A DNA stretch of 64,000 bases from Conexibacter sp. DBS9H8 (GTDB taxonomy: Bacteria; Actinomycetota; Thermoleophilia; Solirubrobacterales; Solirubrobacteraceae): the NCBI RefSeq assembly GCF_023330685.1, contig NZ_CP097128.1:682001-746000 (forward strand), written 5' to 3'. Position numbers and translations under genes: made by a program. Under the pieces are notes generated by a model. It was given only the letters and a program-made list of their open reading frames with translations, was not told the origin of the DNA and made no database searches. Positions 11,146 through 47,678 of this stretch are shown here, piece after piece (the stretch's first letter is position 1; every line of letters begins with the position of its first letter).

Positions 11146-12363
11146 TCACGTGGCCCGCGACGTCGATGAGGAAGAGAGCGACGCGCAAGTCACGGCGCCA
11201 CTGAGCTCTGCCAGCTCTTGGCCGTCGTAACCGAGGTCGCGCAACACCGCCTCGGTGTGCGCCCCCAGGTCCGGCGCCGGTCGCTGCCACGGAATCTCAC
11301 GATCGTCGATCAGCCAGGGTAGGCGGACCAACGGCACGCCGTCAGAGTCCAACATCGTGCGGCGCTCGCCCGCGACGTTGGTCTTGATCGCCTGCTCGAG
11401 CCCGAGGACCCGTCCGACGGGGACGCGCTCACGGGCGAACACCGGCAGCCAGTCCTCGGTCGGCCGAGTCCGCAGGCGGTCACTCAGCTCGTGGGCGAGT
11501 TCCTGTCGGTTGCCGCTCCGCTCAGCGACGGAGAGAAAGCGGGGATCGTCCGCGAGCTCCGGAGCGTCCAAAGCGCGCGTAACTCCCAGCCACAGCCGCT
11601 GGTTGGCCGCCGCGATGAGCAGATAGCCGTCCTGGGTCTCGTAACACTCGTACGGCGCCGCAATCGGGTTTCCCGAGCCGGCTCGCGGCGGGCGAACACC
11701 CGTCACATACGCGCTCGTGGCCTGGTATGCAGCCAGATTGAAGCCTGTGTCGACCAACGCCGTTTCGATCTCCTCAACCGGCTGGCCGGCATGGCGGGCC
11801 ATCAGCGCTGCCACCACGCCCAGCGCGATCCACTGGCCGGTGCCGAGATCAATCACCGAGGGTGCGCATCGTGTGGGAGGAGAGCCGTCGTGTCCGGTCA
11901 TCTCCATGATCCCGGTGAAGGCCTGCACCAACGGGTCATAGCCAGGGAGAGTTGCTCCGACGGCACCGGCGCCAAAGCCGTTGACGTCGTAATACAGCAG
12001 CGACGGATTGATCTCGCGAGTCGCCTCCTTGCCGAGCCCGAGGCGCTCCAGTGTACCGGGACGCATGCTCTGTAACAGGACGTTTGCGGTGCCGATCAGT
12101 CGTAGCGCTGCCTCTTGACCCTTCTGGCTCTTGAGGTCGAGCACTAAGCTCCGCTTGCCCGCATTCACGTAGCGGTGAACGACGCTGACGTCGTTGAGGG
12201 GTGACGCATAGTGGCGAGAGTCATCGCCGGTCGGAGACTCGATCTTGATCACGTCAGCGCCGAGTTGCGCCAGGATCATCGCCCCAAACGGCCCGGCGAT
12301 ATTCGTGCAAAGCTCGACAATACGGATGCCGCGAAGGGGCGCAAAATCAGGCGGGAAGGTCAT
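11146..12363 (-). CDS. Family III CoA-transferase (CaiB/BaiF)
   Basis: 405 residues from ATG 12363, chosen because family members begin close to the LRGIRIVEL motif; ATG 12405 is also in frame and neither has a clear ribosome-binding site. N-terminal block [20 protein letters not shown] (CoA binding) and the catalytic Asp in GYDPLVQAFTGIM are present. It should move CoA between acids, or act as a racemase-like lyase, on an acyl-CoA intermediate. First gene of the island, transcribed toward the tRNA; its serine-rich last 15 residues (CASLSSSSTSRAT) look like run-on sequence at the island edge. Confidence 0.88.
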   Translation of the reverse strand: MTFPPDFAPLRGIRIVELCTNIAGPFGAMILAQLGADVIKIESPTGDDSRHYASPLNDVSVVHRYVNAGKRSLVLDLKSQKGQEAALRLIGTANVLLQSMRPGTLERLGLGKEATREINPSLLYYDVNGFGAGAVGATLPGYDPLVQAFTGIMEMTGHDGSPPTRCAPSVIDLGTGQWIALGVVAALMARHAGQPVEEIETALVDTGFNLAAYQATSAYVTGVRPPRAGSGNPIAAPYECYETQDGYLLIAAANQRLWLGVTRALDAPELADDPRFLSVAERSGNRQELAHELSDRLRTRPTEDWLPVFARERVPVGRVLGLEQAIKTNVAGERRTMLDSDGVPLVRLPWLIDDREIPWQRPAPDLGAHTEAVLRDLGYDGQELAELSGAVTCASLSSSSTSRAT

Positions 12364-12539
12364 GCAGCGTGACTGATTCGCATGGAGTTGATTAGAAGCC
12401 AGCATTGAGCAGACGGCGACTGACCATTGCGCTAGTCACGATTGTCCGGCGGCTGCTCGGCAGCCCGCCGCCTCCCAGTTGGTTGCCAGCACGATGGCGA
12501 GGGCCTCCAGCACGTCGCCAGGGATCGCGGACGCCATGG

Positions 12540-12960
12540 GTAGTGCGGGAGGCGCGACCTCTCTCAGGTCTCCGAGTGCGGACAAGGAGTCGGACATGGA
12601 TGGCGTCGGCGAACTCGCCGACGAGGCGAAACATATAAGGCCGCACATCTGCAACGTACATCGGATGTGCGGATCCTCGATCGCGTCTGGCGCTGCATCG
12701 GCGACAGGCCGAGGTCGTAGAACTCCCCGTGGAACGACAGAGCGTGCTCGCTCTGGACCCCTCCCAGATGTGACCCAACGCGCCGATCGGCTTGTGCAGC
12801 CATGGTTCCGACCCGTCGCGCCGGGGTTTCGTATGAGCACGCGTTGTGGACGCCACGTGAGTGCCGAGGCCGAGCGCAAGGCGCCCATGGGAGGCCACTT
12901 GAGATCTCAGGTAGTCAGGACGATGACCAACGGACTCCCCGTGAAGGCGGTTGAGACGCC
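12540..12960 (-). pseudogene. F420-dependent luciferase-like oxidoreductase remnant
   Basis: On the minus strand homologous pieces of one LLM-class flavin/F420 oxidoreductase follow each other in three frames. VSTAFTGSPLVIVLTT is interrupted by a stop at 12907-12909. RLALGLGTHV (12883-12854) is the diagnostic GRxxLGLGxQV-like motif. ALSFHGEFYDL (about 12743-12711) is in another frame, and HPMYVADVRPYMFRLVGEF continuing into ADAIHV (about 12667-12590) returns to the second frame. At least two frameshifts plus a stop make it dead. It lies between the CoA-transferase and the importer operon and was probably part of the original pathway. Confidence 0.72.
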
Positions 12961-13468
12961 GGCACCCCGCAGAGGTGGGGGATCGATCCGACGATTCCGG
13001 CCTGGTGCGGCTGCCCGAGCGCGGTCACGGTCGTGTGGAGCGCCTCGGCCGCTGGGAACTGGGATAACCACGCGGGCCGACGCGACCGAGACGACATCGA
13101 TCGCCCTGTGATCGGGCCGATTAACAGTGGTGTTCAGGATGCGCTCGACGCCGGCGGCGGTACACGCGTCGGCGATCGCGTCTGAGACCGCGGCCGGGCT
13201 GGACACAAGCTCGACGCTGTCGCTGGGGTGGCTCTACCAATGGCGAATAGCGAGCACTGGCTCGGTCGCCCGCCTTCAGCGAAACTAGCGCTTCGGATAG
13301 TTGCTGGTGGGTGCTGCGCTAGCCATGCTCGACGGGAAAGCTCGTCTTCGGAACCCGTGGCGGCTCGGTGACTGTAGGGCGTCACAGGCCCCCGAAGACA
13401 CAGCCATCTGAGGCTCAACAGCGCGCATGCGCTGGGGATCCCGGACTGAGGAGAGGAATAGGTACATC

Positions 13469-14746
13469 ATGAAACAGGATCGACACAATAAGAGGCGATC
13501 CACGCGCTGGGTCGCGATATTGGCGGGCTGTGTGCTCGCCGCAATCACGTTGGCGGCATGTGGCGCCGGCAATAGCGGTACTAGCGCCAGTTCGAGCGGC
13601 TCGGGGAAGAGCAGCGGCGGTTCAGGCGGGAAGTCGGACTTTGTGGTCGGGACCGTTCAGCCCCTGACAGGGGTATACGGAGCAGCGGGCCTCGACATCG
13701 TCCATGCACTCAAGGCGGAAGCCAGCATCATCAACGCCAAGGGCGGCATTCTGGGGCACCCGGTCAAGATCGTCGCCGTCGATGATGCGTCCAACCCGCA
13801 GACCGCGATCTCCGCGACCCAGGAGCTGATCAGCTCCAACTCACTGAACATGTTCGAGCCGGACGTGATTTACGGTGCCACGCAGTTGCCTCTGACCAAG
13901 AACATCTTGTCGGTCAACATCTGCGGGAGCGCGGAGTGCAGCGACGCCAGCAAGTATCCGCTCGACTTTTCACTCAACCCCCCAGCGGGTGCGCAGGTCC
14001 CACCGCTGATTGCCTATGCCAAGCAGCACGGCTATACCAAGGTCGGGATCCTCGCCACCAACGACGCGGCAGGGACGTATTTCACCCAGACCGTCACGAC
14101 TGACGCAAAGGCGGCCGGACTGACGGTCGTCGGCTCCCAGTCCTTCAGTCCGACCGCCACCGACATCTCGGCTGAGGTCCAGGCCCTCAAGGGCAGCGGC
14201 GCCCAGACGGTTCTCACCTGGGCGGCCGGCGCCACGATCGGCGTAGTGATGAAGGGCATGCAGGCAGTCGACTACACCGTCCCCGTGCTCGGGACGCCGA
14301 CCGTGTTTACCGCCCCGGTTGCCCAGCTTGTGCCTGCTCCCGTACAGAAGCAGCTGACCTGCCTCTGCTACGCAGTCGGCATCCGCACCGGCGCGACCGC
14401 TCCGGCCGTGCTGCAGCCGCTGGTCAGTCGCGTTACCAAGTACGGCCCAATCGCGAGCATGATGGTCGTTGGCCTTGCCGCCGACACTCTGGAGTTGGCC
14501 AACTACGGCTTTACCAAGGCCGGGTCACTCGATCCGAAGGCGGCCGCTACGGCGATCCAGGGCATCGGATCTGCCTCGAATTACCCGGGGACGGATTTCT
14601 GGTCCTACCGCACCAAGGCGCCAGAGTTCACGGCGACCAATCACGCCCCTGCGAGCGGACCGCTATCACAAGGGTTCTATGGCGTGGCCAAGGTCAGCCC
14701 TCTGGTGGACGGGATGTACCTCGGCACGTATCCGTTCAAGTATTAG
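13469..14746 (+). CDS. ABC importer substrate-binding lipoprotein (LivJ type)
   Basis: 425 residues from ATG 13469, which follows a GAGGAGAGG site; an upstream in-frame ATG (13427) would bury the signal peptide. Residues 13-31 form a lipoprotein signal with lipobox LAAC (Cys31), then a Ser/Gly linker. The mature protein is a Peripla_BP_6 fold (VGTVQPLTGVYGAAG, GILGHPVKIVAVDDASNP, YTKVGILATNDAAG). Such proteins deliver branched-chain amino acids, but in catabolic clusters often aromatic or alicyclic carboxylates, to a Liv-type permease. It is the first gene of the four-gene importer operon and likely defines the imported substrate. Confidence 0.92.
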   Translation: MKQDRHNKRRSTRWVAILAGCVLAAITLAACGAGNSGTSASSSGSGKSSGGSGGKSDFVVGTVQPLTGVYGAAGLDIVHALKAEASIINAKGGILGHPVKIVAVDDASNPQTAISATQELISSNSLNMFEPDVIYGATQLPLTKNILSVNICGSAECSDASKYPLDFSLNPPAGAQVPPLIAYAKQHGYTKVGILATNDAAGTYFTQTVTTDAKAAGLTVVGSQSFSPTATDISAEVQALKGSGAQTVLTWAAGATIGVVMKGMQAVDYTVPVLGTPTVFTAPVAQLVPAPVQKQLTCLCYAVGIRTGATAPAVLQPLVSRVTKYGPIASMMVVGLAADTLELANYGFTKAGSLDPKAAATAIQGIGSASNYPGTDFWSYRTKAPEFTATNHAPASGPLSQGFYGVAKVSPLVDGMYLGTYPFKY

Positions 14747-14820: not shown

Positions 14821-15711
14821 ATGAATCTCACAACACTCGGTGTCGGCATCGCATCGGGAATTGGTCTGGGGAGTGCGTACGCGCTCGTCGCAGTCAGCTT
14901 CACCCTCATCGTCGCATCCACCGGGTACTTTATCTTCGCGCTGGAGTCGCTCGTGTCCATCGGTGGAGTCTTGACCTACGTCCTCAGTGCCGACGCTCAT
15001 CTTCCGATGCTCCTCGTCGGAGTGCTCGTGTGCATCGGTGGTCTGATCGCCGGTGCGGCACTTGACGTTATCGCGCGCCGGCCGTTCGAGGGCAGGACGA
15101 CGAACATCGGCCTGGTCGTCCTGCTCGCCTCGATCGGACTGTCGATCGCCATCGATGCCACGGTCGGGCTGCTGTTCGGGAGCAATACACTGAACGTGCC
15201 CGGCTACGTATCCGCGAACCCGTTGATCGTCGACGGCGTCGCGATCAACCCGGCCTATGTTGTGATGTTTGGCGCGATCGTGGTGCTGACCATCGTCTCC
15301 GAGTTCGTCTTCCGCCGAACCAGTACCGGTCGGAATCTGCGCGCGACCCAGCTCGACAGTGAGGGGGTTAGGCTCCTCGGCCTGAACGTCGGATTGATGA
15401 CCACCTGTGTGTTCGGGGTGTCAGGCCTGCTGGCGATGTTCGCCGGCTACCTCCTCACTCCGATCACCTCGGCGTCGGCAACCACGGGTTCTGGGCTGGT
15501 GATTCCTGCATTCGCCGCGTTGGCAATCGGCGGCTTTGGCAGTTTCCGTGGTGCCATCGGCGGCAGCATCGCCGTCGGCCTCGTTGTCGGGATCGTGCCG
15601 TTGTACATGCAGTCGGCCTACGTCGATCCGATCCTGCTTGCGGCAATCGTGTTGGTCCTGCTCGTGCGGCCCCAGGGCCTGTTTGGTACGACGGCCGCCC
15701 GAGCACTCTGA
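14821..15711 (+). CDS. ABC importer permease (LivH type)
   Basis: 296 residues from ATG 14821. Mostly hydrophobic with about eight membrane segments; opens GIASGIGLGSAYALVAVSFT and contains the coupling-loop region FRRTSTGRNLRATQLDSEG before GLNVGLMTTCVFGVSG, the family EAA-like loop that contacts the ATPases. Forms the membrane channel together with the LivM half of the next protein. Lies 74 nt after the binding protein gene and 8 nt before the fused permease-ATPase gene, within one operon. Confidence 0.92.
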   Translation: MNLTTLGVGIASGIGLGSAYALVAVSFTLIVASTGYFIFALESLVSIGGVLTYVLSADAHLPMLLVGVLVCIGGLIAGAALDVIARRPFEGRTTNIGLVVLLASIGLSIAIDATVGLLFGSNTLNVPGYVSANPLIVDGVAINPAYVVMFGAIVVLTIVSEFVFRRTSTGRNLRATQLDSEGVRLLGLNVGLMTTCVFGVSGLLAMFAGYLLTPITSASATTGSGLVIPAFAALAIGGFGSFRGAIGGSIAVGLVVGIVPLYMQSAYVDPILLAAIVLVLLVRPQGLFGTTAARAL

Positions 15712-15719: not shown

Positions 15720-17627
15720 ATGCCTGAGCCCACCGTCCAGCCTCCGACCCCCACGCCACCCGCCGTTCGCGGCAATGCTCTGCGCGCCCTGTTGTCAGCC
15801 AAGCAGCGGCCTGGCGTCAACTGGGGGGTCGCTCTCGCTGTCCTAATCATGGCGCTGCTTGTCCCCTTCATCACGGGCGGTTACGTTCTCTTTCAGCTGG
15901 AATTGGTCCTGATCTACATCGGTGCCGCCAGCGGCCTCAACCTCGCGGTCGGCTACGCAGGGGAATTCCTGCTGTGTCAGGCCACCGTGATCGGTATGGC
16001 GGCATATGTCTCCGGCATCTTGAGCAGCATGCACAACTGGTCGCCGATCGAGACGTTGCCGCTGGCGATCGTCGCCGCGATCATCTGGCAGCTGATCATC
16101 AGCATCTCCGGACTTCGGGTCCGAGGTCTCTACCTCGGGATTCTCTCTTTCTTCTCTGTCCTCGTCTTCCCGGATCTCGTCCTGCTGACGAGCAACATCA
16201 GCGGAGGCACCGGCGGACTGATCGGGATCTCGCCGTTTGCCCAGCCCGGCTCATCTGACTTCACGGTCCTGCCTTTTGAGATCGCGGTTGCTGTCGCCGC
16301 GGTTTCGGCCCTGATCGTCCGCAATCTTGTCGTGTCCGGATGGGGCATCAGGCTCCGCTACCTCCGAGACGCCCCTCATTCGCTGGCCTCGGCCGGGGTC
16401 AACATCACGAGAACCAAGTTGACGGTGTACGTCGTCTCGGCTATTCCCGCAGCGCTCGCGGGCTGGGCGCTTGCGTACTTCAGCGAGTCGCTGACCTCGT
16501 CGGTGTTCGGACTGTCGCTGACACTCATTCTGTTCGCCGGGGTCCAACTCGTCCGTCCCGGGTCCATCGCGGGACCGATCATCGGCGCTGGGCTGTTGGA
16601 GGGCTACAGCCAGCTTGTCGGCCCCTTCAGTCAGTACAACACGCTCGGGCTCGGGGCCCTGCTGACCCTTGCGTTGATCGTTCTCCCGGGTGGTTTCGGC
16701 CGCTTTCTCTCGCGCAACAGCGGGAGCGCCGCCGCCACGCGGCGTCGGCGTATCCTCAGCGCTGGACCGGTCACGCCCGAGCTCAATCCGCTGGTCGAGT
16801 TACGCCGCGCGCGTCAGGATGCCAGCGCAGCCGGTCAGGCGGAGAACGATACAGCGGTAGTGCTGGAGGTTCGTGACATCGTCAAGTCCTTCGGTGGCAA
16901 CCGTGCGGTCGACGGCGCGGGCTTCACCGTCGGGACCGGTCGGATCGTCGCGTTGATGGGTGAGAACGGATCGGGAAAGACGACCTTGGTGAACATCATT
17001 TCGGGGTTTCTGCGTCCCGACTCCGGCCAGGTGCTGATCAAGGGCCGGCCGACGACCGGCATGGTTGCCTCGCAGGTGGCCCGGCTCGGCTGTGCCCGGA
17101 CCTTTCAGGTGCCCCAGGTGGTTGGCGAACTGACCGTGCGCGAGAACGTCGAAGTTGGACTGCTGTATCGCTCGTGCGTCGGTCCGGCGCGGGCGATTCT
17201 GCTCCCGTTCATCGCTCGGCGCGCCGACCGGGTGCGTCGCGAGGCGGCGGTGCGCATCTGTGAGGAGATGGGCCTCTCCGCAGAGCAGATCGATCAGGAG
17301 ACCGACACTCTGTCGCTCGGCATGCGCCGGATCGTCGAGGTGGCCAGGGCGATCGCCAGTTCGGCCGACCTGATCTGTCTTGACGAGCCGGCCGCGGGCC
17401 TCAACGACGATGAAATCGATTCGCTGTCCCAGGTGCTTAAGGATGTGCGGCAGACCGGTGAGGCGATCCTCCTCGTCGAGCACAACGCGCGCTTTGTGCT
17501 CAGCACCTGCGACGACATCATCCTGCTGCGCGCCGGCAAGGTGGAGGCGTTCTTCTCGGACGTCGATGAAGACAACCTGCCTCCAGCGTTACAGCGTCAT
17601 CTGCGTCGTGCGACGGTAAGCGTCTGA
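15720..17627 (+). CDS. Fused LivM-type permease and LivG-type ATPase
   Basis: 635 residues from ATG 15720. Residues about 35-340 are a LivM permease with roughly nine hydrophobic segments (GLNLAVGYAGEFLLCQA, SGLRVRGLYLGILSFF, GTGGLIGI). A basic linker (RRRRILSAG, about 343-351) leads to a complete LivG ATPase: VVLEVRDIVKSFGG from about 380, Walker A GENGSGKTT (about 414-422), signature LSLGMRR (about 530), Walker B ICLDEPAAGL and the switch His in EHN. These are separate proteins in the classical Liv system; fusion is known in some actinobacteria. It supplies one permease half and one ATPase of the importer. Confidence 0.92.
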   Translation: MPEPTVQPPTPTPPAVRGNALRALLSAKQRPGVNWGVALAVLIMALLVPFITGGYVLFQLELVLIYIGAASGLNLAVGYAGEFLLCQATVIGMAAYVSGILSSMHNWSPIETLPLAIVAAIIWQLIISISGLRVRGLYLGILSFFSVLVFPDLVLLTSNISGGTGGLIGISPFAQPGSSDFTVLPFEIAVAVAAVSALIVRNLVVSGWGIRLRYLRDAPHSLASAGVNITRTKLTVYVVSAIPAALAGWALAYFSESLTSSVFGLSLTLILFAGVQLVRPGSIAGPIIGAGLLEGYSQLVGPFSQYNTLGLGALLTLALIVLPGGFGRFLSRNSGSAAATRRRRILSAGPVTPELNPLVELRRARQDASAAGQAENDTAVVLEVRDIVKSFGGNRAVDGAGFTVGTGRIVALMGENGSGKTTLVNIISGFLRPDSGQVLIKGRPTTGMVASQVARLGCARTFQVPQVVGELTVRENVEVGLLYRSCVGPARAILLPFIARRADRVRREAAVRICEEMGLSAEQIDQETDTLSLGMRRIVEVARAIASSADLICLDEPAAGLNDDEIDSLSQVLKDVRQTGEAILLVEHNARFVLSTCDDIILLRAGKVEAFFSDVDEDNLPPALQRHLRRATVSV

Positions 17628-17629: not shown

Positions 17630-18304
17630 ATGACGAAGCCGGTACTCAAAGTGACGGCGCTGCGTGCGTGGTACGGCCGCTCTCAGGTGCTCTGGGATGT
17701 CGGGTTCGAGATTGGGTCCGGTGAGGGCCTCGGGATCATCGGCCGCAACGGGGCCGGTAAGTCGACGTTGCTGCGTAGCCTGGCGGGGGTGCATGAGAAG
17801 GTCGCGGGTGCCATCGAGTTCAGTGGTGCCAACGTGACCGGGCGCCCGCCGCACGAGATCACCCGCCGCGGGCTCTCGCTCGTGCGTGAGGGGGCGCCGG
17901 TGTTCGGCGATCTGACGATTCTCGAGAACATCACGCTCGGTGCTGCGCTCGCCAAGCGGCGTGGCTTATCGCCGCTGGACCTCGAGGAGGTCTGGGAGAC
18001 CTTCCCGGTGCTCCTCCAGATGGCTGATCGCAAGGCCGGTTATCTGAGCGGTGGCCAGCGCCAGATGCTCGCTCTGGCCACAGCGCTCGTGTCGCGACCT
18101 GTGCTACTGCTGCTTGATGAGCCCTCGGCCGGTCTGGCGCCGGAGGCGGCCGCCACCGCGTTTGAGGCGATCGCCAAAATGCGCCAGGGCGGACTGTGCA
18201 TTCTCATCGCCGAGCAGAACCTTGAGTGGCTCACCGGGATCACCTCGAACACCCTGGAGATCGAGAGCGGCCGTGTTGAGGGCCGCGGGTCTGTGCACGT
18301 CTGA
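17630..18304 (+). CDS. ABC importer ATPase (LivF type)
   Basis: 224 residues from ATG 17630, 2 nt after the fused protein. Walker A GRNGAGKST (about 38-46), signature LSGGQRQMLALA (about 140-151), Walker B LLLLDEPSAGLAP. The switch residue region reads AEQNLEWL, Gln-Asn where many ATPases have His, usual for LivF. Last gene of the importer operon, followed by a hairpin terminator facing the convergent crotonase gene. Confidence 0.93.
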   Translation: MTKPVLKVTALRAWYGRSQVLWDVGFEIGSGEGLGIIGRNGAGKSTLLRSLAGVHEKVAGAIEFSGANVTGRPPHEITRRGLSLVREGAPVFGDLTILENITLGAALAKRRGLSPLDLEEVWETFPVLLQMADRKAGYLSGGQRQMLALATALVSRPVLLLLDEPSAGLAPEAAATAFEAIAKMRQGGLCILIAEQNLEWLTGITSNTLEIESGRVEGRGSVHV

Positions 18305-18350: not shown

Positions 18351-19145
18351 TCAGCCCTCGGGCCGGAACCTGGGCCGCCGCTTTTCGAGGAAGGCTCGCG
18401 TCCCCTCGTGGAACTCGGCTGTCCCGTAGATATAGGTGAGCGCTTCGAAGCCCTGGCGGACCGACGCGAGCACCGCGTCGTTATCGGCGTTGATCGAGGT
18501 CTTGGTCAGACGCATCGACTGTGGGCTGTGGCTGAGCAGCCGCTCGCACCAGCTCTGGACGACCGCGTCGAGCTCGTCGTCAGGAACCGCCCGATTGATC
18601 CACCCGATACGCGCCGCCTCAGTCGCAGTGTAGGTTTCACCCAGCATGATGATTTCCTTGGCGAGCTTCTCCCCGACGAGCCGATTCATCAGCTGAGTCC
18701 CGAACCAGATCGGCGAGTTGCCGAGGCGGGCATCAGTGTGGGCGAAGCGGGCGGACTCGGCGGCGATCGAGAAATCGCAGAACAGGTTGAGCTCGTTGCC
18801 ACCGCCGACACACCAGCCGCTGATCTTGGCGATCGTCGGCTTACCGGTGCCCCGCATAGCCTCAGCAAGACGCATCAGGAGACGCGCCATCCTGCGCCCT
18901 TCATCTGGTGTGAACTCGCCTTCCATGTCCACCTCACCACCGGTGCTAAACGCTTGCTGTCCGGCTCCGCTGAGTACGATGACGCGGACCTCCGAGTTGG
19001 CGTCGGCACGGTCGAAGGCCTCGATCAGCTCATGGATCGTCTGCTCGCGGAAGGCGTTGTGGACCTCCGGACGGTTGATCACGATCCGACAGACCCCGTC
19101 CGCTGCGGCATAGCTGATGTCGGGGCTGGAAGCGGTCCCGCTCAT
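18351..19145 (-). CDS. Crotonase-fold protein, MenB/BadI-like
   Basis: 264 residues from ATG 19145, overlapping the upstream ligase stop by 4 nt. Oxyanion-hole blocks AFSTGGEVDMEG and GWCVGGGNELNLFCDFSIAA are clear. The block after FAHTDARLGNSPIWFGTQLMNRL lacks the two glutamates of a simple enoyl-CoA hydratase and looks more like the naphthoate synthase (MenB) and 2-ketocyclohexanecarboxyl-CoA hydrolase (BadI) branch, including the GEKLAKEI motif after it. A ring-closing or ring-opening Claisen-type reaction is therefore possible. Co-transcribed with the acyl-CoA ligase at 19142. Confidence 0.8.
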   Translation of the reverse strand: MSGTASSPDISYAAADGVCRIVINRPEVHNAFREQTIHELIEAFDRADANSEVRVIVLSGAGQQAFSTGGEVDMEGEFTPDEGRRMARLLMRLAEAMRGTGKPTIAKISGWCVGGGNELNLFCDFSIAAESARFAHTDARLGNSPIWFGTQLMNRLVGEKLAKEIIMLGETYTATEAARIGWINRAVPDDELDAVVQSWCERLLSHSPQSMRLTKTSINADNDAVLASVRQGFEALTYIYGTAEFHEGTRAFLEKRRPRFRPEG

Positions 19146-38995: not shown

Positions 38996-38996
38996 G

Positions 38997-40235: not shown

Positions 40236-41425
40236 CGCCGCTCGCCTGGCCGGGTAGCACGGCGCTCGTGGGCATCGGGGAGACGGATTACGTCCGTGGC
40301 AGCGATGCCTCCCCGCTCCGGCTGATGCTCGAGGCTTCGACGACGGCGATCGTGGACGCCGGACTCTCGCCTGCCGATATCGACGGGATCATTCCCCCAC
40401 CTGGGTTCACCTCCGCCGAGGAGATTGCCGCCCACCTAGGCTGCTCCGAGCTTCGCTTCTCGGTGACCTCCCACATGGGGGGCGCGAGCCCCGTTGCCTC
40501 GTTGCAGAGCGCCGCGCTCGCGATCTCGGCCGGACTGGTCAGGAACGTCCTCATCACAGTTGGCTGGAACGGCTATTCGGCGTTCCGACGCCGTGAGGGG
40601 ACGACGCCGCCGCGCAAGCGGAGGGACCCGGGCGCCTACGCTGGGGTCACACCCGACTTCTACGTACCCTACGGCCTGCGGGCTCCCGCACAGATGTACG
40701 CGCTCTACCTCATGCACTACGTGCAGCGCTACGGCGTTTCCGGAGACGCGGCCGCGGCCGTCGCTCTGGCCTGTCGCCGGCACGCACAGCTCAACCCGCG
40801 TGCACTGATGCGCGGCCGGGAGCTGACGCTTGAGGAGTACGCCGCGTCGCCCTGGGTGGCCGAGCCGCTCCGCAAGCTCGACTGCTGCCTGGAGACCGAC
40901 TGTGCCGCGGCTGTTGTGATGACCTCGCTGGAGCGAGCGCGGAGTCTGCGCGCAGCACCGGTCGTCTACCTGGCCGGTGCCGAAGGCCACCCGTTCCCCG
41001 CTGATGACGTCATCAATCGGTCTGACCCGTTACGCCTCGGCTTGCACGACGCCGCTCCCCGGGCGCTCGCGATGGCCGGCGCGCGGATCCAGGACGCGGA
41101 CTTCCTGCAGATCTACGACTGTTTCACCTACGTGGTGCTGCTCGAGCTCGAGGCACTCGGATTGGCCGATCCGGGTGGCGCCGCAGAGTTTGTCGCCGGA
41201 GGCTCGATCGAGCTCGGCGGACGGTATCCGCTCAACACGCACGGCGGCTTGCTGTCCCAGGGGCACGCCTGGGGACTCAACCACGTCATCGAAGCCGTGC
41301 GGCAACTGCGCCATGAGGCCGGAGCCGCGCAAGTAAAGGACGCAGGACTGGGCGTCGTCACCGGTTACGGCGACCTCGGCGACGGCAGCATCGCGATCCT
41401 TGCGCGGGAGAGTGAGTCCAGATGA
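40232..41425 (+). CDS. Thiolase-like / lipid-transfer protein, cysteine-less
   Basis: 397 residues from ATG 40232 (ATGA overlap). Thiolase fold: [10 protein letters not shown] at the start, [23 protein letters not shown], and the [18 protein letters not shown] His motif. The nucleophilic Cys position reads HMGGASPVA and the C-terminal Cys position reads GYGDLGDGS, so both catalytic cysteines are absent. That pattern, with a DUF35 gene overlapping downstream, matches the steroid side-chain retro-aldolase Ltp2 and its DUF35 partner. C-C cleavage of a beta-hydroxyacyl-CoA is therefore more likely than thiolysis. Confidence 0.85.
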
Positions 41426-41829
41426 GCATCCAGCCACGTGCCCCTCAGCCCGAGGGGCTGAACCTCGAGTTCTACGAGCACGCCGCCTCAGGCACGCTGC
41501 ACATTCAGCAGTGCAGCGACTGCGGACACTTCCGGCATCCGCCACGATACTTCTGTCCGGTCTGCTTTTCGTCGCACTATCGCTGGACCCCCTCGGAGGG
41601 ACGTGGAACGCTCTTCTCCTGGACCGTCACCCACTTCCCGTACGACCGCGGGTGGGCCGAAGGCCTCCCGTACGCGACGCTCGTGGTCGAGCTCGATGAG
41701 GGCGTGCGGCTGATCGGGGCCGATGGGACACAGGACATCGCTGTCCTGAGCCCAGGTCTCCGTATGGTGGGGCAGCTCACGCAGGACTCCTACGGCTTCC
41801 CGTTCCTGACCTTCGTCGAGCACCCATGA
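41422..41829 (+). CDS. DUF35 (Zn-ribbon/OB-fold) partner protein
   Basis: 135 residues from ATG 41422, overlapping the thiolase-like gene by 4 nt. Zinc ribbon cysteines 31, 34, 45 and 48 (CSDCGHF, FCPVCF), then an OB-fold ([19 protein letters not shown]). DUF35 proteins bind CoA esters and form complexes with thiolase-like or Ltp2-type enzymes. The overlap argues for a stoichiometric complex with the protein at 40232. Confidence 0.92.
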
Positions 41830-42857
41830 GTGTGCGGAACCCAAGCACCGGAATTGACCGCTTCGCGGTGACGCGGTGGCTTGCAGCCGAGGCCGGCCTG
41901 ATTCTGCCCCTGAGGTTTACCCGTATCGGTGGCGGCCAGTCGAACCTCACCTTCAGGGTGGAGGACGCCACCGGGGGCTTCACCGTCCTGCGTCGCCCAC
42001 CGATCGGGGCCGTGCTCGAAACGGCGCACGACATGGCCCGCGAGTTCGAGATCACCGCGGGCCTCCACCGCGCCGATCAGAAGGTCCCCAGGCCGATCGC
42101 CCTGTGCCGCGATGTCGCCGTGACTGGAGCGCCCTTCTACCTGATGGAGCATGTAACGGGCCATGTCCTACTCGACCGTGACGCCGCGGAGCTCCTCGCT
42201 CCGGAGATACGGCGGCGAGCGGGCCTGGAGATGATCGACACGTTGGTCGACCTCCAGCACGTCGACCTGGACCTCGCCGGTCTCGAACAGCTGAGACGGC
42301 GGACACCCTATATCGCGCGTCAGGTGCGTCGCTGGCACGGACAGTGGGAGGCATCGCGGACCCGCGACCTGCCCGAGGTGGACGAGCTTGCGGTGCTGCT
42401 CGCCGAGGCGGCGCCGTCGACGGATGAGCACGTGCTCGTCCACGGCGACTACCGCCTCGACAACCTGCTGGTCGTCGACGACGGTTCGGTCGCCGCTGTG
42501 CTCGACTGGGAGCTGTGCACGACCGGGCCGCCCTTGGCGGACCTTGGCCTCGCACTCGCCTACTGGGAGGAGGCCTCCATGCCCGCCGGTCTGTTTCCGA
42601 GTCCCGTCACGTCGCTCGTCGGGTTCCCGACGCCCGGTGAGCTGATCGAGCGCTACATCCAACGCTCGGGTCGCGACGCCAGCGGCCTTGAGTATTACAC
42701 CGCGCTCGCGTTCTGGAAGATCGCGATCATCATCGAGGGGGTCTATCGCCGGTGGCTCACCGACCCGACGAATGGTGCAGAGACCGCCGGTGACCTTGGT
42801 GAGATCGTCCCTCGCCTCGTCCACCGCGCGACCGAGGTCGCGCGCGGTGCCGCCTGA
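41826..42857 (+). CDS. Aminoglycoside phosphotransferase-fold kinase (ACAD10/11-like)
   Basis: 343 residues from ATG 41826 (ATGA overlap). N-lobe GGQSNLTFRVED and VLRRPPIGAVLETAHDMARE are typical of the kinase part of ACAD10/ACAD11; catalytic loop HGDYRLDNLLV (Asp, Asn) and metal-binding DWELCTTGPPLADLG are intact. In ACAD10/11 and in bacterial levulinate catabolism this kinase phosphorylates a 4-hydroxyacyl-CoA so that the hydroxyl can leave. A similar hydroxyacyl-CoA kinase role is inferred here; no acyl-CoA dehydrogenase domain is attached or nearby, unlike ACAD10/11. Confidence 0.88.
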   Translation: MSVRNPSTGIDRFAVTRWLAAEAGLILPLRFTRIGGGQSNLTFRVEDATGGFTVLRRPPIGAVLETAHDMAREFEITAGLHRADQKVPRPIALCRDVAVTGAPFYLMEHVTGHVLLDRDAAELLAPEIRRRAGLEMIDTLVDLQHVDLDLAGLEQLRRRTPYIARQVRRWHGQWEASRTRDLPEVDELAVLLAEAAPSTDEHVLVHGDYRLDNLLVVDDGSVAAVLDWELCTTGPPLADLGLALAYWEEASMPAGLFPSPVTSLVGFPTPGELIERYIQRSGRDASGLEYYTALAFWKIAIIIEGVYRRWLTDPTNGAETAGDLGEIVPRLVHRATEVARGAA

Positions 42858-42915: not shown

Positions 42916-43881
42916 CTACAGGCTGACGACGAGCTTGCCGCGCACATCACCGGAGCTCATGCGAGCGATGCCCACGGGGACATCGTCCAAGGACAGCGTG
43001 TCACTGATCGGTGGACGGATGCCGGTCTTGACCATCAAAGCGAGCAGCTTTATGAGCTCGTCCCTCGTTCCCATGGTCGAGCCCTGGATCCGCACGTTGT
43101 TGGAGAACAGCCGGCCCAGGTCATAGGTGGCCGCCAGGCCGCTCGTGCCGCCCGCGACCACCACCGTCCCACCCTTGCGCACTGAGTACAGCGAGTGTTC
43201 GGCAGTTTTGGCCCCGACCGAGTCCAGCACGGCGTCGACGCGTGCCGGCAGCCGCGCGCCCGGCTCAAAGGCCGCGTCAGCGCCAAGCGAGCGGGCGTAC
43301 TCACGCTTCTCCTCAGAGCGGCCGGTCACCCAGACGATCAGCCCAGCGGCGTTGGCGAGCATGATCGCGGCGCTGGCCAGGCCTCCGGCCGCGCCCTGGA
43401 TCAGCACCGTCTCGCCGGGCTTCAGTGCCGCCTGAACAAACAGCATCCGGTAGGCCGTCAGCCAGGCGGTCGGGAGGCAGGACGCCTCGGCGAAGCTCAG
43501 CTCCTGTGGCTTGGGCACCAGGTTCGCGCGCGGCACGACGACCTGTTCAGCCAGAGCACCCTGGTGGCGCTCTGACAGCAACGACAGCTGTGGATCAAGC
43601 TCCTGCGGCCCGAGCCAGTTCTCGGCGTTGATCACGCCGTGGATGATCACCGCGTTGCCGTCCGCGTCGTCGCCTGCGGCGTCGGTGCCGAGGATCATCG
43701 GCAGCGCCTCCTCGCGAATGCACAGGCCCCGCGCCGACCAGACATCGTGGTGGTTGATCGACGCTCCCCGTACGGTGACGACGGTCCAGCCCGCCGGTGG
43801 ATCGGGTGTTGGCCGCTCGCCAACGGTGACCGCGGCGGCCGGGTCCTCCGCGTCAAAGCGCTCCAGGTAGGCGGCGCGCAT
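42916..43881 (-). CDS. Zinc-independent MDR oxidoreductase (quinone/enoyl reductase-like)
   Basis: 321 residues from ATG 43881, overlapping the MeaB-SDR stop by one base. Medium-chain dehydrogenase fold: ASINHHDVWSARG, GTDAAG, nucleotide motif IQGAAGGLASAAIML, and DAVLDSVGAKT. The structural zinc cysteine cluster is missing, as in quinone oxidoreductases and enoyl-CoA/crotonyl-CoA reductase relatives. Last gene of the mutase operon, so reduction of an unsaturated thioester or oxidation of an alcohol intermediate next to the mutase step is plausible. Confidence 0.87.
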   Translation of the reverse strand: MRAAYLERFDAEDPAAAVTVGERPTPDPPAGWTVVTVRGASINHHDVWSARGLCIREEALPMILGTDAAGDDADGNAVIIHGVINAENWLGPQELDPQLSLLSERHQGALAEQVVVPRANLVPKPQELSFAEASCLPTAWLTAYRMLFVQAALKPGETVLIQGAAGGLASAAIMLANAAGLIVWVTGRSEEKREYARSLGADAAFEPGARLPARVDAVLDSVGAKTAEHSLYSVRKGGTVVVAGGTSGLAATYDLGRLFSNNVRIQGSTMGTRDELIKLLALMVKTGIRPPISDTLSLDDVPVGIARMSSGDVRGKLVVSL

Positions 43882-45518
43882 CAACGTGCCGTCCAGCCGC
43901 CGTCAACGGCGATCGTCTGGCCCGTGCAGTAGCTGGAGGCATCGGAGGCGAGGAAGAGCAGGACCCCGTCAAGCTCGTCCTCGCGACCCATCCGCTCCAT
44001 CGGACAAGAGCGCCGGATGTAACGCTGAGAGGAGTCGTCATCGACCATGTCGGCGGTCATCTCGGAGGGGAACCAGCCGGGCGCAATGGCATTCACACGG
44101 ACACCGCGCTTGGCCCACTCGACCGCCAGCTCACGCGTCAGGTTCACCAGCCCGGCCTTCGAGGCTGCGTAGGCGGCATCCATCACCGGCGCGTTGGCGA
44201 CCAGACCGAAGACCGACGTGATGTTGACGATGCTGCCATGGGCCTGAGCCAGCATCGGCGTGGCCACCAGTTGGGCCATGGAGAAGACCGATGAGAGGTT
44301 CACGTCGATCGTCGTCGTCCAGCGCTCAGCCGGAAGATGTTCGGCCGGGACTGGATCGCCAGATACGCCGGCGTTGTTGATCAACACGTCGATGCGGCCC
44401 AAACGCTTCAGCGTGGCGGCGATCACCGACTCGCGGTCCCCAGCCCTCGTGATGTCGCCCGCTACGGCGATCGACCGCTCGAGCGTAGCCGTCAGCTCAT
44501 TCAGGCGGTCGGCACGGCGGCCGGTCAGCACGACGCTGGCGCCCGCCGCGTGCAGCACCTCGGCAAAGCGGCGCCCCAGGCCGCTGGTTGCACCGGTCAC
44601 GATCGCCACCCGTCCGGTCAGGTCGAATGGCGTGAGCGCTTGGGCCGACGGGCGGACCGCCGGCACCGGGCGGGGGGGCGCCACCGGCGCCGACTTCGGC
44701 TGGCCCAACTGGTCAGCCGATGAGAGCGGCGCGGTCTCCGTTGGCGTTCCCCCCACAGGAGTTGGCTCCTGGCGTTCGAGTAGGTCAACCAGCCCAGCGA
44801 TCCCGTCCCCGCTGGTCGCGCTGGTCAGCAGCACGGGGCGGTCGGTCCCTGTGCGACCACCAGGGCCTGCATCGGCGAGGCCGGCGGCAAGTGCCTGAGC
44901 GCCCGGGCGGTCGGATTTGGTCACGACGAAGATGTCGGCTACCTCCATCAGGCCGGCCTTCATCACCTGCATCTCATCGCCGAGGCCGGGCGGCGCGCTG
45001 ACCATCGTCACATCCGCCAGGCCACAGACGTCAATGTCGCTCTGCCCGGCACCGACGGTCTCAATCAGCACAACGTCGGCACCCCAGTGCTCCAGCAGCC
45101 GGATCGCCGTCGCGGTCACCTCGGCCAGCCCGCCGTGGCCGAGGCGCGAGCCGATCGAGCGGACGTAGAGGCGGGGGTGGGGACGATGTTTCATCCGCAC
45201 GCGGTCAGCCAGGATGGCACCGCCCGTACGTGCGCTGGAGGGGTCGATCAGCAGGACTCCGACCGTGTGGTTGCGGCGGACGAACTCAGGCACAACCGCG
45301 CCCAACAGCGTTGACTTGCCAGCCCCGGGCGGGCCGGTCAAGCCGATCCGTAGCGCTCGTTGACCGGCGGCGGCAAGCTGGGAATCGATCAATCCGGCCA
45401 ACGCGGGCGAGTTCTCTGCGCGGGAGATCGCCTGGGCCAGGACGGTGCGATCACCAGCCGCGATCGCGGCCAGCGATGCGGCCAGACTCTCCGAACTGCC
45501 CACCACGGCTGTGCTCAT
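43881..45518 (-). CDS. MeaB-type mutase GTPase fused to an SDR dehydrogenase
   Basis: 545 residues from ATG 45518, one open frame. Residues about 15-245 are a MeaB/ArgK GTPase: P-loop TGPPGAGKST (61-70), LIDPSSARTGG (90-100), ETVGAGQSD (153-161), TKSD (200-203). The C-terminal helical arm normally following is replaced by a Pro-rich linker (about 250-295). Residues about 298-545 are a full SDR: TGATSGLG (308-315), NNAG (381-384), Ser435, Tyr450, Lys454 and TGQTIAVDGGW. MeaB loads and protects B12 mutases. The dehydrogenase would be positioned to oxidise the mutase product. I know of no characterised protein with this pairing. Confidence 0.92.
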   Translation of the reverse strand: MSTAVVGSSESLAASLAAIAAGDRTVLAQAISRAENSPALAGLIDSQLAAAGQRALRIGLTGPPGAGKSTLLGAVVPEFVRRNHTVGVLLIDPSSARTGGAILADRVRMKHRPHPRLYVRSIGSRLGHGGLAEVTATAIRLLEHWGADVVLIETVGAGQSDIDVCGLADVTMVSAPPGLGDEMQVMKAGLMEVADIFVVTKSDRPGAQALAAGLADAGPGGRTGTDRPVLLTSATSGDGIAGLVDLLERQEPTPVGGTPTETAPLSSADQLGQPKSAPVAPPRPVPAVRPSAQALTPFDLTGRVAIVTGATSGLGRRFAEVLHAAGASVVLTGRRADRLNELTATLERSIAVAGDITRAGDRESVIAATLKRLGRIDVLINNAGVSGDPVPAEHLPAERWTTTIDVNLSSVFSMAQLVATPMLAQAHGSIVNITSVFGLVANAPVMDAAYAASKAGLVNLTRELAVEWAKRGVRVNAIAPGWFPSEMTADMVDDDSSQRYIRRSCPMERMGREDELDGVLLFLASDASSYCTGQTIAVDGGWTAR

Positions 45519-45940
45519 GCGGCGGCATTGCGCTCGGCGCGGGTGCTGAGCGCGAGGGCACGGAAGGTCTCAATCACACGCTCAAAGCTCTCGCCACCGC
45601 GGAAGATCGCACGCACGCCTGCGGAGTTCAGGCCCTCAACATCGAAGGGACGGATCGTCCCGCCGACCACGACCGGGATGTCGCCGCGGTTGGCTTGAGC
45701 CAGGGAGCCAACGATCGCCTCTGTGACCGACACCTGGCCGCCGGACATGAAGCTGACGCCGATCACGTCGACATCCTCATCGACGGCCACGTGCGCCACG
45801 TCGCTTGGCATCTCGTAATCGATCAGGATCACCTCAAAGCCGGCATCGCGCAGCGCCAGTGCGATCGTCTTGATCGCGCGGTCGTGGCTGTCGATGAAGC
45901 TCTTGGTGAGCAGGACGCGGGGGACAAAATCGGTGGACAT
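45515..45940 (-). CDS. B12-binding small subunit of acyl-CoA mutase
   Basis: 141 residues from ATG 45940, 10 nt after the large subunit stop and overlapping the MeaB-SDR start by 4 nt. Cobalamin-binding motif: DSHDRAIKTIAL has the lower-ligand His but Ala in place of the usual Gly of DxHxxG; SFMSGG and VVVGGTI follow in the expected positions. Corresponds to IcmB/HcmB-type small subunits of about 135 residues, not to the long fused mutases. Partner is the 575-residue protein at 45951. Confidence 0.93.
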   Translation of the reverse strand: MSTDFVPRVLLTKSFIDSHDRAIKTIALALRDAGFEVILIDYEMPSDVAHVAVDEDVDVIGVSFMSGGQVSVTEAIVGSLAQANRGDIPVVVGGTIRPFDVEGLNSAGVRAIFRGGESFERVIETFRALALSTRAERNAAA

Positions 45941-45950
45941 GCGCTCTGGC

Positions 45951-47678
45951 CTACTTGTTGCGGCCGAAGACTTCGTGCAAAACGGTCTGCATCTCTCCGA
46001 GCGTCGCGCCGATCTGGGCGGCGTCGACCAGCGCAGCGGTGACCGACCCGATTTCGCGGCCCTCCTGGATCGCGTGGCCGGCCCTGCGCAGCTTCTCCAG
46101 CGCCGCGCTCGTCGCCGCGTTGTCGCGCTCGGTTCGGTGGCGGGCCAGATCCTCGAGCGCCAGACGAGCGGCCTCGGGGTCCGGCTGGAAGACACGGACT
46201 TTTGGCTCCTCATCCACGACGTGGGTGTTGACGCCGACCATCGGCCGGGCGCCTGACTCAACCTCTTGGCGCCAACGGTAGGCCGAGCGGGCAACCTGCT
46301 CGGTCATCCAGCCGGACTCGATGCACTCGATCAGGCCGCCGCGCTCATCGATCTCATCAATCACCGCCATCGCTGCCCGTTCCACCTCATCGGTCAGTCT
46401 CTCGAGGTAAAAGGACCCACCGAGGGGGTCGGTGACCTTGGTGACGCCAGTCTCCTCGGCGAGGATCTGGCTCGTTCTGAGAGAGAGGGTCACCGCCTCC
46501 TCGGTGGGGATCCCCAACGCCTCGTCATAGGCGTTGATCGTCATGCCGTTGACGCCGCTCAGTACGGCGGACATCGCGCCGTAGGCGTTACGCATGAGGT
46601 TGTTCAGCGGCTGCTGCACGGTCAACAGTGAGCCAGCGGTTTGGGCGTGGATGCGCGCCTGGAGCGAGCCCACTTTCACACAGGCGAAACGGTCGCGGTT
46701 CACCTTCGCATACATCCGCCGCAACGCTCGCGTCTTGGCGATGTCCTCGAAGAAGTCCTCGCCGTAGCGTACGTGGAAGCCGTACCGGGGAACGACGGTG
46801 TCGAGATCGATCCCAAGGGAGCGGCACTCCTCATTCAGCGCGATGATCGTCGCAATCGAGAAGGCGACCGCCTGGACGTGATTGGCGCCGGCCTCACAGA
46901 TGTTGTGCTCGCTAACGGTCAACGTGTTGAAGCGCGGCGCGACGCCAGCGCAGTAGACGGCGATGTCGGCACACAGACGGTAACTGCCGCGCGGTGAGAA
47001 GTTGATGCCGCCGCAATGACCGAAGAAGTCCCAGATATAGTTGGTGATGTTGCCGCCCAGCTTGGTGAGATCGAATCCCCGGTTGCGGGCAGCCGCCAGA
47101 TACAGCGCGAGGATGCCGGGCGAGCCGGCGTTGCAGACCATCGACACGTGTGTGGCCGTGAGGTCCTTGCCATCGAACAGCGTCTCGAAGTCCGACATCT
47201 TCGAGATGGACACGCCGGTGTCGCCGATGGCGCCCTGTACGCCCGGGAAGTCCGGATCGATGCCCATCGAGGTGGGCATGTCAAAGATGATGTTGTAGGC
47301 CTCGCCACCGAAGTAGCCGCGGGCGCCGCCCTCCTCCTTGAGTAGGTCCATGCGTTCGCGCAGTTGGCTCGCCACGCCGTAGCCGATGATCTGCAGATCC
47401 ATCCACGGCTGGTACTGGTAGTGGACTGGGTAGAGGTTGCGGTCGTAGGGGAACTGGCCCGGCATGACCAGCTCCTCAACAGGCTTGGCGGCTAGGTCCT
47501 GGGGACCGTAGGCGGGTTGGACCACAACGCCTGATCGGTTGGTTGATTCGAAGGTGGCTTCGCCATAGCGCTTGTGGCGGGCATCGAGCCAGCGCTCGGC
47601 CGCGGAGTCCACAACTGCGGCGGCCGTGTCGGACAGCCAGCGCTTGATCCTCGGGGCGTCGTTGGTGCCTGTGAGCAT
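45951..47678 (-). CDS. Adenosylcobalamin-dependent acyl-CoA mutase, large subunit (divergent)
   Basis: 575 residues from ATG 47678, the usual size of IcmA/HcmA. Family blocks: FDMPTSMGIDPD, GDTGVSISKMSDFETLF, SMVCNAGSPGILALY, CEAGANHVQAVAFSIA, RIHAQTAGSLLTVQQPLNN and TDPLGGSFYLERLTDE. By eye against methylmalonyl-CoA mutase, Tyr89 aligns with Ile97 (as in 2-hydroxyisobutyryl-CoA mutase), Gln197 with Thr212, Arg207 with Cys222, and Tyr243-His244 with His258-Asn259. It should therefore not take methylmalonyl-CoA. First gene of the mutase operon (mutase, B12 subunit, MeaB-SDR, MDR). Substrate unknown. Confidence 0.92.
   Translation of the reverse strand: MLTGTNDAPRIKRWLSDTAAAVVDSAAERWLDARHKRYGEATFESTNRSGVVVQPAYGPQDLAAKPVEELVMPGQFPYDRNLYPVHYQYQPWMDLQIIGYGVASQLRERMDLLKEEGGARGYFGGEAYNIIFDMPTSMGIDPDFPGVQGAIGDTGVSISKMSDFETLFDGKDLTATHVSMVCNAGSPGILALYLAAARNRGFDLTKLGGNITNYIWDFFGHCGGINFSPRGSYRLCADIAVYCAGVAPRFNTLTVSEHNICEAGANHVQAVAFSIATIIALNEECRSLGIDLDTVVPRYGFHVRYGEDFFEDIAKTRALRRMYAKVNRDRFACVKVGSLQARIHAQTAGSLLTVQQPLNNLMRNAYGAMSAVLSGVNGMTINAYDEALGIPTEEAVTLSLRTSQILAEETGVTKVTDPLGGSFYLERLTDEVERAAMAVIDEIDERGGLIECIESGWMTEQVARSAYRWRQEVESGARPMVGVNTHVVDEEPKVRVFQPDPEAARLALEDLARHRTERDNAATSAALEKLRRAGHAIQEGREIGSVTAALVDAAQIGATLGEMQTVLHEVFGRNK

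Follow-up and report, generated by a model that had tools for sequence, protein, structure and literature searches.

An apparently undescribed acyl-CoA catabolic system with a divergent B12-dependent mutase and a separable AtuA cassette in Conexibacter sp. DBS9H8

Quaternary and tertiary branched carbons block beta-oxidation, and to our knowledge few enzymes are able to get past them. In the acetone cluster of Desulfosarcina cetonica, according to the available part of the report, a mutase turns 2-hydroxyisobutyryl-CoA into 3-hydroxybutyryl-CoA, which a short-chain dehydrogenase/reductase (SDR) then oxidises; the locus tags given there are 105214 for the SDR, 105215 for MeaB, 105216 for the B12 subunit and 105217 for the mutase (PMC7888143). 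A pivalyl/isovaleryl-CoA mutase side activity of IcmF is described in the accessible portion of another paper (PMC10481361). Here we describe an island of Conexibacter sp. DBS9H8 which carries a B12-dependent acyl-CoA mutase and lies in a stretch of 64,000 nucleotides, hereafter the window, at positions 682001-746000 of the 3.64-Mb single-contig genome. This tRNA-adjacent block of imported genes seems to equip the bacterium to take up branched carboxylic acids and break them down, and it is apparently a coherent catabolic system for acyl-CoAs, so far undescribed, whose B12 mutase is divergent; no published description of the gene combination was found in literature searches, with subscription papers mostly outside their reach.

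The island shares with the D. cetonica cluster the set of mutase, B12 subunit, MeaB and SDR, in the same order as far as the locus-tag numbers in the available part of that report indicate. As in the HcmAB/RcmAB-MeaH systems, large and small mutase subunits are clustered with a MeaB-type chaperone, the site of Tyr89 of methylmalonyl-CoA mutase (MCM) is occupied by Ile, and 4r3u is the best solved match. Compared with 2-hydroxyisobutyryl-CoA mutase (HCM), however, the island enzyme is 36% identical to Xaut_5021 (which we take to be an HCM), has Ile in place of the HCM Asp and replaced equivalents of Gln197, Tyr243 and His244, and is accompanied by a MeaB fused to an SDR; no thiamine pyrophosphate-enzyme domain was found among the 30 island open reading frames (ORFs) scanned with Pfam, 20 of which were also scanned with NCBIfam, and hcl was not searched by name. 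Pivalyl-CoA mutases resemble the island mutase in a hydrophobic pocket pair, and some loci of its family have neighbours to process 3-methylacyl-CoA. The identity to Xaut_5043, presumably a pivalyl-CoA mutase, is 33%, however, the rest of the pocket differs, and the mutase is not fused to its chaperone.

Other parts of the island recall other pathways. The Atu/Liu pathway of acyclic terpene and leucine degradation likewise combines AtuA, biotin carboxylase with carboxyltransferase, and a crotonase, whereas in the island biotin carboxylase and carrier are separate genes and the carboxyltransferase lacks the three-residue insertion of methylcrotonyl-CoA carboxylase (MCC). The steroid side-chain systems Ltp2-ChsH2 and Sal-Shy, with FadD19 and EchA19, also pair a thiolase-fold enzyme with DUF35; the island's YDCF motif compares with the YDC of Sal, and an EchA19-like crotonase, below the model cut-off, is nearby. 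Nevertheless, the second tyrosine of Ltp2 (Tyr344) aligns with island His347, the DUF35 protein has a C4 zinc ribbon, not the C3H1 type, and no hydratase domain in comparison with Shy, and no steroid-ring genes were recognised among the 30 ORFs. Levulinate LvaA and the ACAD10/11 kinases provide a precedent for an APH-fold kinase adjoining acyl-CoA genes; unlike ACAD10/11, the island kinase has no acyl-CoA dehydrogenase (ACAD) partner in the island. Among published genomes, the closest theme found is that of SAR202, whose genomes hold many CaiB/BaiF CoA-transferases and flavin monooxygenases according to the part of the source available (PMC5395668); the remote relatives of the island mutase are also from Chloroflexi.

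Two parts make up the island, a core regulon and an AtuA cassette that was added to it and can occur apart from it. The 18 core genes are listed below with window coordinates, strand and matches, and identities refer to homologues at numbered comparison loci, among which L053 and L054 belong to the metagenome-assembled genome (MAG) 'Solirubrobacterales bacterium isolate clean386'.

11146..12405, minus strand: family III CoA-transferase a (PF02515, 9.5e-102; 58% identity in L054, 55-59% in L010, L015 and L018)
13427..14746, plus strand: periplasmic binding lipoprotein of a Liv-type ABC importer (PF13458; lipobox LAAC; 75% in L054)
14821..15711, plus strand: importer protein LivH
15720..17627, plus strand: importer LivM-LivG fusion
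17630..18304, plus strand: importer protein LivF (these three: PF02653/PF00005; 68-72% in L054)
31506..32765, plus strand: family III CoA-transferase b (PF02515; 76% in L054)
32773..33600, plus strand: crotonase c (PF00378; 78% in L054)
33705..34424, plus strand: response regulator (72% in L053/L054)
34361..36397, plus strand: GAF histidine kinase (50-58% in L053/L054)
36501..38180, plus strand: acyl-CoA ligase c (NF005863, 603 bits, cut-off 543; 69-71% in L051/L054, 58-60% in three alphaproteobacterial genomes)
38177..38995, plus strand: crotonase d, EchA19-like (EchA19 model 261 bits, below the cut-off of 400; 81% in L054, 71% in L058)
38985..40235, plus strand: family III CoA-transferase c (PF02515; 75% in L054; start inferred by eye)
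40226..41425, plus strand: candidate thiolase-fold retro-aldolase with a YDCF motif (closest PDB entry 6ok1, 2.1e-63; 82% in L054)
41422..41829, plus strand: DUF35/ChsH2-C-like partner with a C4 zinc ribbon (PF01796/PF12172; 66% in L054)
42916..43884, minus strand: MDR oxidoreductase (PF00107; 67% in L054)
43881..45518, minus strand: MeaB GTPase and SDR, fused as a single ORF (PF03308 and PF13561)
45515..45940, minus strand: B12-binding mutase small subunit (PF02310; DSHDRA motif; start inferred by eye)
45951..47678, minus strand: divergent B12-dependent mutase large subunit (PF01642, 1.7e-140, 469 bits, cut-off 22)

In clean386 the whole core forms one contiguous run with identities of 58-82% (the histidine kinase has a short first piece at 50%), in the order response regulator, histidine kinase, CoA-transferase a, LivF, LivM-LivG, LivH, binding lipoprotein, ligase c, crotonase d, CoA-transferase c, thiolase-fold enzyme, DUF35 protein, CoA-transferase b, crotonase c, MDR oxidoreductase, MeaB-SDR, B12 subunit and mutase. 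Portions of it also occur in three alphaproteobacterial loci (L010, L015 and L018), where a ligase 58-60% identical to ligase c, which we take to be FadD19-like, and CoA-transferase a (55-59%) share a stretch with the mutase; a homologue of crotonase d (71%) was seen at L010, the sole one of the three to be extended. The same three loci hold three consecutive family III CoA-transferase-like genes next to an FMO-like flavoprotein and, at a greater distance, the mutase, an arrangement comparable to the three CoA-transferases of the window.

The remaining genes of the island include the AtuA cassette and several that accompany it.

18351..19145, minus strand: crotonase a (PF00378; not in the L054 core)
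19142..20866, minus strand: acyl-CoA ligase a (PF00501; not in the core)
20932..22614, plus strand: acyl-CoA ligase b (PF00501; homologues near the AtuA cassette in L048, 55-63% identity)
22614..23711, plus strand: NMO/FabK-like flavoprotein (PF03060; accompanies the AtuA cassette in L048, 66%; start inferred by eye)
23708..25555, plus strand: AtuA, cassette (PF07287, 1.6e-138, and PF23544, the AtuA ferredoxin-like domain; 61-63% in L046-L048)
25552..27030, plus strand: biotin carboxylase subunit, cassette (PF02786/PF00289/PF02785; 63-69% in same-family genomes; start inferred by eye)
27018..27545, plus strand: biotin carrier protein, cassette (PF00364; MKM biotin motif; 50-52% in same-family genomes)
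27494..29143, plus strand: carboxyltransferase of the MCC/geranyl-CoA carboxylase (GCC) type, cassette (PF01039; solved matches; 67-77% in same-family genomes)
29179..29943, plus strand: crotonase b, cassette (PF00378; 64-73% in L046-L048)
29969..30727, plus strand: SDR b (PF13561; start codon inferred by eye)
41826..42857, plus strand: ACAD10/11-type kinase (PF01636; ACAD11 structure 8v3v, 2.3e-46; absent from L054)

The clean386 run contains none of these, that is, neither crotonase a, ligases a and b, the flavoprotein, AtuA, biotin carboxylase, carrier protein, carboxyltransferase, crotonase b, SDR b nor the kinase, and AtuA was not found elsewhere in the clean386 genome by a search which gave no signal there or in its controls. 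The cassette from AtuA to crotonase b, in turn, stands alone in three genomes of the same family (G298, G202 and G081, loci L046-L048) at 50-77% identity, and these three yielded no mutase match at E <= 1e-120 in a protein search of 299 class genomes in which the best four candidates per genome were scored. At that threshold the mutase is present in 2/299 genomes, host included, and in none of the eight genus-mates listed in the search. Two more genomes (L049 and L050) have AtuA with carboxylase genes closer to those of Sphingobium. It is the occurrence of the core without AtuA in clean386, and of the cassette without a mutase in the other three genomes, that marks the two as separable modules.

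Among the 16 mutase-holding genomes or records, AtuA was found in eight and not found in the other eight, several of which are MAGs and one of which (L005) is a plasmid record only; for the genome of L008, the search was silent in both target and controls, the same family search being positive in other runs. The window AtuA is 61-64% identical to those of the same family and 48% to that of Sphingobium, for which reason the pairings of AtuA with the mutase, in the window and in a sphingomonad clade, look independently assembled. The initial annotation had proposed a single pathway, to be refuted if co-occurrence revealed independently assembled modules. This outcome was partly observed, and one pathway through all the island genes was rejected, given that cassette and core occur separately; the idea of a coherent system survives in the form of the 18-gene core, conserved in a second genome. 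Yet AtuA and the mutase were joined at least twice, in the window and in a single clade of sphingomonads, and this speaks for a functional connection between them where they occur together.

The borders of the island are marked by two features.

10782..10855, plus strand: tRNA-Val (tac; ARAGORN), left boundary
48014..48055, plus strand: degenerate copy of the 3' half of tRNA-Val (38/43 alignment columns identical), right boundary

The copy lies 37 kb from the tRNA gene and reaches a local score of 32, whereas none of 43 control segments of 2.5 kb scored above 18. A tRNA boundary with a direct repeat of the 3' part of the tRNA, as expected of a tRNA-targeted integrative island, is hence present. 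The G+C content is 0.63-0.68 at 12-48 kb and 0.70-0.76 in most of the flanks, but 0.68 in the first 2 kb of the window. None of the 12 PF00589 hits of the genome falls inside the window, the integrase search having been confined to that recombinase family. Among 10 genus-mate loci with gnd, compared as possible empty sites, one had tRNA-Val beside gnd, the sequence beyond matching neither flank. The recurrence of the core in a second genome, together with boundaries coinciding with tRNA-Val, its copy and the drop in G+C, argues against a chance grouping. Within the island, an ORF of 150 amino acids at 12436-12888 has no Pfam match, and the gap at 30728-31505 holds short ORFs only.

Judged by its sequence, the window mutase belongs to a new, divergent subfamily of adenosylcobalamin (AdoCbl)-dependent acyl-CoA mutases. 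A scan of genome contigs, which detects only carriers of two exact peptide patterns and whose counts are therefore lower bounds, returned at least 18 loci, 14 at 62-80% identity and four from Chloroflexi at 37-42%. By title, the closer 14 comprise Solirubrobacterales, sphingomonads, one other alphaproteobacterial MAG, Amycolatopsis echigonensis and one further actinobacterial MAG, and the mutase of a Sphingobium conjugative plasmid (L005) is 68-69% identical. The 16 family sequences form a separate subfamily with 100/100 support, and together with the four Chloroflexi sequences they make up one clade, likewise at 100/100 and on long branches. By both sequence and fold the closest solved mutase is 4r3u, a 2-hydroxyisobutyryl-CoA mutase, to which the model of the window protein compares with a TM of 0.74-0.76 and an rmsd of 15.6; with a middling pLDDT of 69, the model was used for the fold only.

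In MCM, Tyr89 and Arg207 hold the substrate carboxylate, and HCM is marked by Ile90 and Asp117. Residues were compared across 16 family sequences (the window, L005 and the 14 loci) and 11 comparison rows, numbered by alignment to 5req/1req. In all 16, the seven pocket sites R82, R87, Y89, A116, Q197, Y243 and H244 of MCM are replaced by Q, L, I, I, T, H and N, respectively, and the equivalent of R207 is C in four and S in 12, so that I97 and C222 stand in the window where MCM has its carboxylate-holding pair. Q197 and H244 are conserved in all 11 comparison rows, among which the remaining sites vary, and neither is kept in the four Chloroflexi rows. The Ile at the Tyr89 site is shared with both HCM-type rows; the Asp that these two rows carry is Ile throughout the family (I131 in the window). 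The R-specific RcmA mutase of Kyrpidia tusciae is said to have Val at position 117. Judging by their titles, PDB entries exist for mutants of MCM Y89 and H244. The B12 subunit, whose DSHDRA motif has Ala for the final Gly of DxHxxG, keeps the axial His in all 11 family rows examined, and the P-loop of the window MeaB is kept. The enzyme probably rearranges carbon skeletons beyond those of ordinary fatty-acid breakdown.

In three of the Chloroflexi loci (L022, L023 and L024), crotonases with 31-37% identity to crotonase d lie on either side of the remote mutase and its B12 subunit. For the host genome, a second copy of the module was considered and rejected, the mutase near the second AtuA, at 3.49 Mb, being only 29% identical. 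That host region (3476000-3535999, L034-L036) has the mutase at 3.490 Mb close to genes resembling MeaB and the B12 subunit, AtuA at ~3.509 Mb, an ACAD 54% identical to that of Sphingobium, and a run of ligase, SDR, DUF35, thiolase, CoA-transferase, crotonase and ACAD genes.

The neighbours of the mutase in its relatives were assigned by BLAST to window and Sphingobium genes, with Pfam on 20 chosen neighbouring ORFs; the flanks of L008, L009, L010, L011, L017, L018, L020, L022 and L024 end at contig ends. In 14 of the 16 family loci the genes for mutase, B12 subunit, MeaB and SDR form an uninterrupted quartet, L020 having MeaB in two frames. The fusion of MeaB and SDR, which the initial annotation did not mention, is one open frame in three actinobacterial loci (the window, L008 and L017), the two genes being separate in the other 11. 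On the Sphingobium plasmid the order is ACAD, isovaleryl-CoA dehydrogenase, a hydrolase on the opposite strand, ligase, carboxyltransferase, crotonase, biotin carboxylase, AtuA, an NTF2-like protein and the mutase. Isovaleryl-CoA dehydrogenase, ligase, carboxyltransferase, crotonase, biotin carboxylase and AtuA stand upstream of the mutase in five loci of one sphingomonad clade (L005, L012, L013, L020 and L025). A homologue of the kinase is no more than one gene away from the quartet in L010, L011 and L016, and ~12 kb away in L005. The L005 cluster, from Sphingobium WTD-1 of activated sludge, is located on the 450-kb conjugative plasmid NZ_CP119128.1 and adjoins Tn3 and IS21 transposases. In L014 (7105-16130), a phage-type integrase and an alpha/beta hydrolase precede the quartet, which is followed by a hydantoinase A-type protein. 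The hydantoinase A-type superfamily includes acetone and acetophenone carboxylases.

All the gene families named in the initial annotation are present according to Pfam and NCBIfam: AtuA, split carboxylase, APH-family kinase, thiolase-fold/DUF35 pair, crotonases, mutase large subunit, B12 subunit and MeaB. The absence of an ACAD from the island also held, with the Pfam domain in 0/30 ORFs and all 25 hits of the genome outside the window; it is not telling, in view of those 25 chromosomal hits, of the isovaleryl-CoA dehydrogenase homologue in the five sphingomonad clusters and of an ACAD homologue ~3.4 kb from the clean386 response regulator (L053). The ACAD10/11 type of the kinase agrees with its APH fold, its HGD and DWE motifs and the ACAD11 kinase domain among the closest solved matches. 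Crotonase b is a crotonase, but its proposed MenB-like character was not borne out (132 bits against the menB cut-off of 343; BadI was not compared by name), and it scores 202 bits against EchA19, whose cut-off is 400. An MCC/GCC-type carboxyltransferase had been suggested; the best solved match is 9tps, with a chain named propionyl-CoA carboxylase (PCC) beta (550 bits), ahead of MCC-beta (534) and GCC-beta (448). A three-residue insertion marks the MCC carboxyltransferase, as stated in the part of the source available (PMC4673880). The island protein lacks it, has Tyr/Arg where 3u9r has Phe-Phe after the insertion (one of the two presumably Phe191), and at the GCC Gly162 site is free of an insertion, as GCC is, with a residue not clearly Gly by sequence alignment only. 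As the insertion is missing despite PCC and MCC scores above that of GCC, the enzyme may accept a larger substrate.

The thiolase-fold enzyme had been called cysteine-less. Both catalytic thiolase cysteines are indeed absent (GGAS at 85-88, TGYG at 379), but Cys299 is kept, with Tyr297, in a YDCF motif at the position of the Tyr/Cys pair of Sal, and the DUF35 gene adjoins. In the bile-acid aldolase Sal, Tyr302 and Cys304 of YDCY act as base and acid, according to the available part of the report (PMC12329534). The match of Y297-D-C299-F to this motif, together with the loss of both thiolase cysteines, makes it likely that the enzyme catalyses retro-aldol cleavage of a beta-hydroxyacyl-CoA.

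The best explanation of the whole, which we hold tentatively and with a little less than even confidence, is a horizontally acquired catabolic island whose core mutase acts on an alpha-branched acyl-CoA to give a 3-hydroxyacyl-CoA, oxidised by the fused SDR, with the AtuA cassette as a separable part. From the genes, their boundaries, co-conservation, fusion and residue changes we infer the two-component control, the class of substrate and each chemical step that follows. The two-component system would control a Liv-type importer for a branched carboxylate, which the ligase and the family III CoA-transferases would activate. The central step would be a radical 1,2-shift by the new AdoCbl mutase on an alpha-branched acyl-CoA, probably an alpha-hydroxy-alpha-methyl one, whose thioester would migrate to the adjacent carbon, and the SDR fused to its G-protein chaperone would oxidise the resulting 3-hydroxyacyl-CoA to 3-oxoacyl-CoA. 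Crotonase and the Sal-like aldolase with DUF35 would remove beta-branched pieces by hydration and retro-aldol cleavage, and the AtuA cassette would add a second, gamma-carboxylation route past a beta-branch. The fusion of the SDR to the mutase chaperone suggests that mutase and SDR act in sequence, and this sequence, with the analogy to D. cetonica, favours a 2-hydroxy-2-methylacyl-CoA substrate. Ile in place of the HCM Asp is compatible with such a substrate, given the Val of the R-specific RcmA at position 117.

Several observations weigh against this explanation. The HCM Asp is Ile131, and MCM Q197, R207, Y243 and H244 are all replaced, so the HCM analogy concerns the logic and not the active site; an alpha-hydroxy-alpha-methyl acid has no visible source; neither MeaB nor SDR is present in the stretch seen of L018; and in that of L019 the SDR is on the opposite strand, with no MeaB. 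The isovaleryl-CoA dehydrogenase and MCC-type genes beside the mutase in the five sphingomonad loci, moreover, fit better a route through a quaternary carbon, in which the mutase would turn a 2,2-dimethylacyl-CoA, either similar to pivalyl-CoA or with CH3 and COSCoA on one carbon of a ring, into a 3-methylacyl-CoA. A chromosomal ACAD would desaturate this product, and its beta-branch would be lost either through hydration followed by Sal-type retro-aldol cleavage or through gamma-carboxylation, hydration and the action of AtuA. We consider this route the less likely of the two, even though those sphingomonad clusters hold the set needed downstream of 3-methylacyl-CoA and the pocket pair I97/I131 is hydrophobic in the window, as it is in Xaut_5043 (L, L). 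Xaut_5043 also groups with the family in two trees (95/91 and 88/80), but long branches meet there and grouping with HCM is not rejected (approximately unbiased test, p 0.488); furthermore, the route leaves the fusion of SDR to MeaB unexplained, and AtuA was not found in half of the 16 mutase holders.

It is improbable that the acyl-CoA modules next to the tRNA were acquired separately and form a loose set in which mutase, aldolase and AtuA do not share one pathway. The free-standing AtuA cassettes of L046-L048, the lack of AtuA, kinase and two ligases in the L054 core and the varied neighbours of the mutase quartet in sphingomonads speak for such a set; on the other hand, the 18-gene core is one conserved unit with its own regulator and importer, and AtuA and the mutase came together twice. 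It is very improbable that the protein is a homologue, degenerate or moonlighting, in which mutase chemistry has been lost, as might be read from the missing His244 and Gln197 equivalents in 16/16 sequences, since the replacing residues are themselves invariant, the motif His of the B12 subunit and the MeaB P-loop are kept where examined, and the gene set persists in two phyla and on mobile DNA.

As a wider and more speculative proposal, possible though well short of an even chance, this would be a new class of B12 acyl-CoA mutase, with a pocket unlike the characterised ones compared, which works in one complex with the SDR via the MeaB-SDR fusion and makes terpenoid-like or alicyclic carboxylates degradable at their quaternary or tertiary branch points. 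Plasmids and islands would carry it between actinobacteria and sphingomonads, with Sal-type aldolase and AtuA/carboxylase as exchangeable modules downstream. In freshwater dissolved organic matter, sp3 carbon without hydrogen substituents makes up a sizeable share, with CqC4 units at 5.5-9.4% and OCqC3 units at 4.7-6.0% of carbon in five samples, according to the available part of that study (PMC11043043). If the proposal is true, a small mobile unit of mutase, chaperone and dehydrogenase would be a concrete, assayable route for such carbon, and the island mutase bears on whether a mutase can do without His244 and Gln197, a pair that each of the 11 comparison rows retains.

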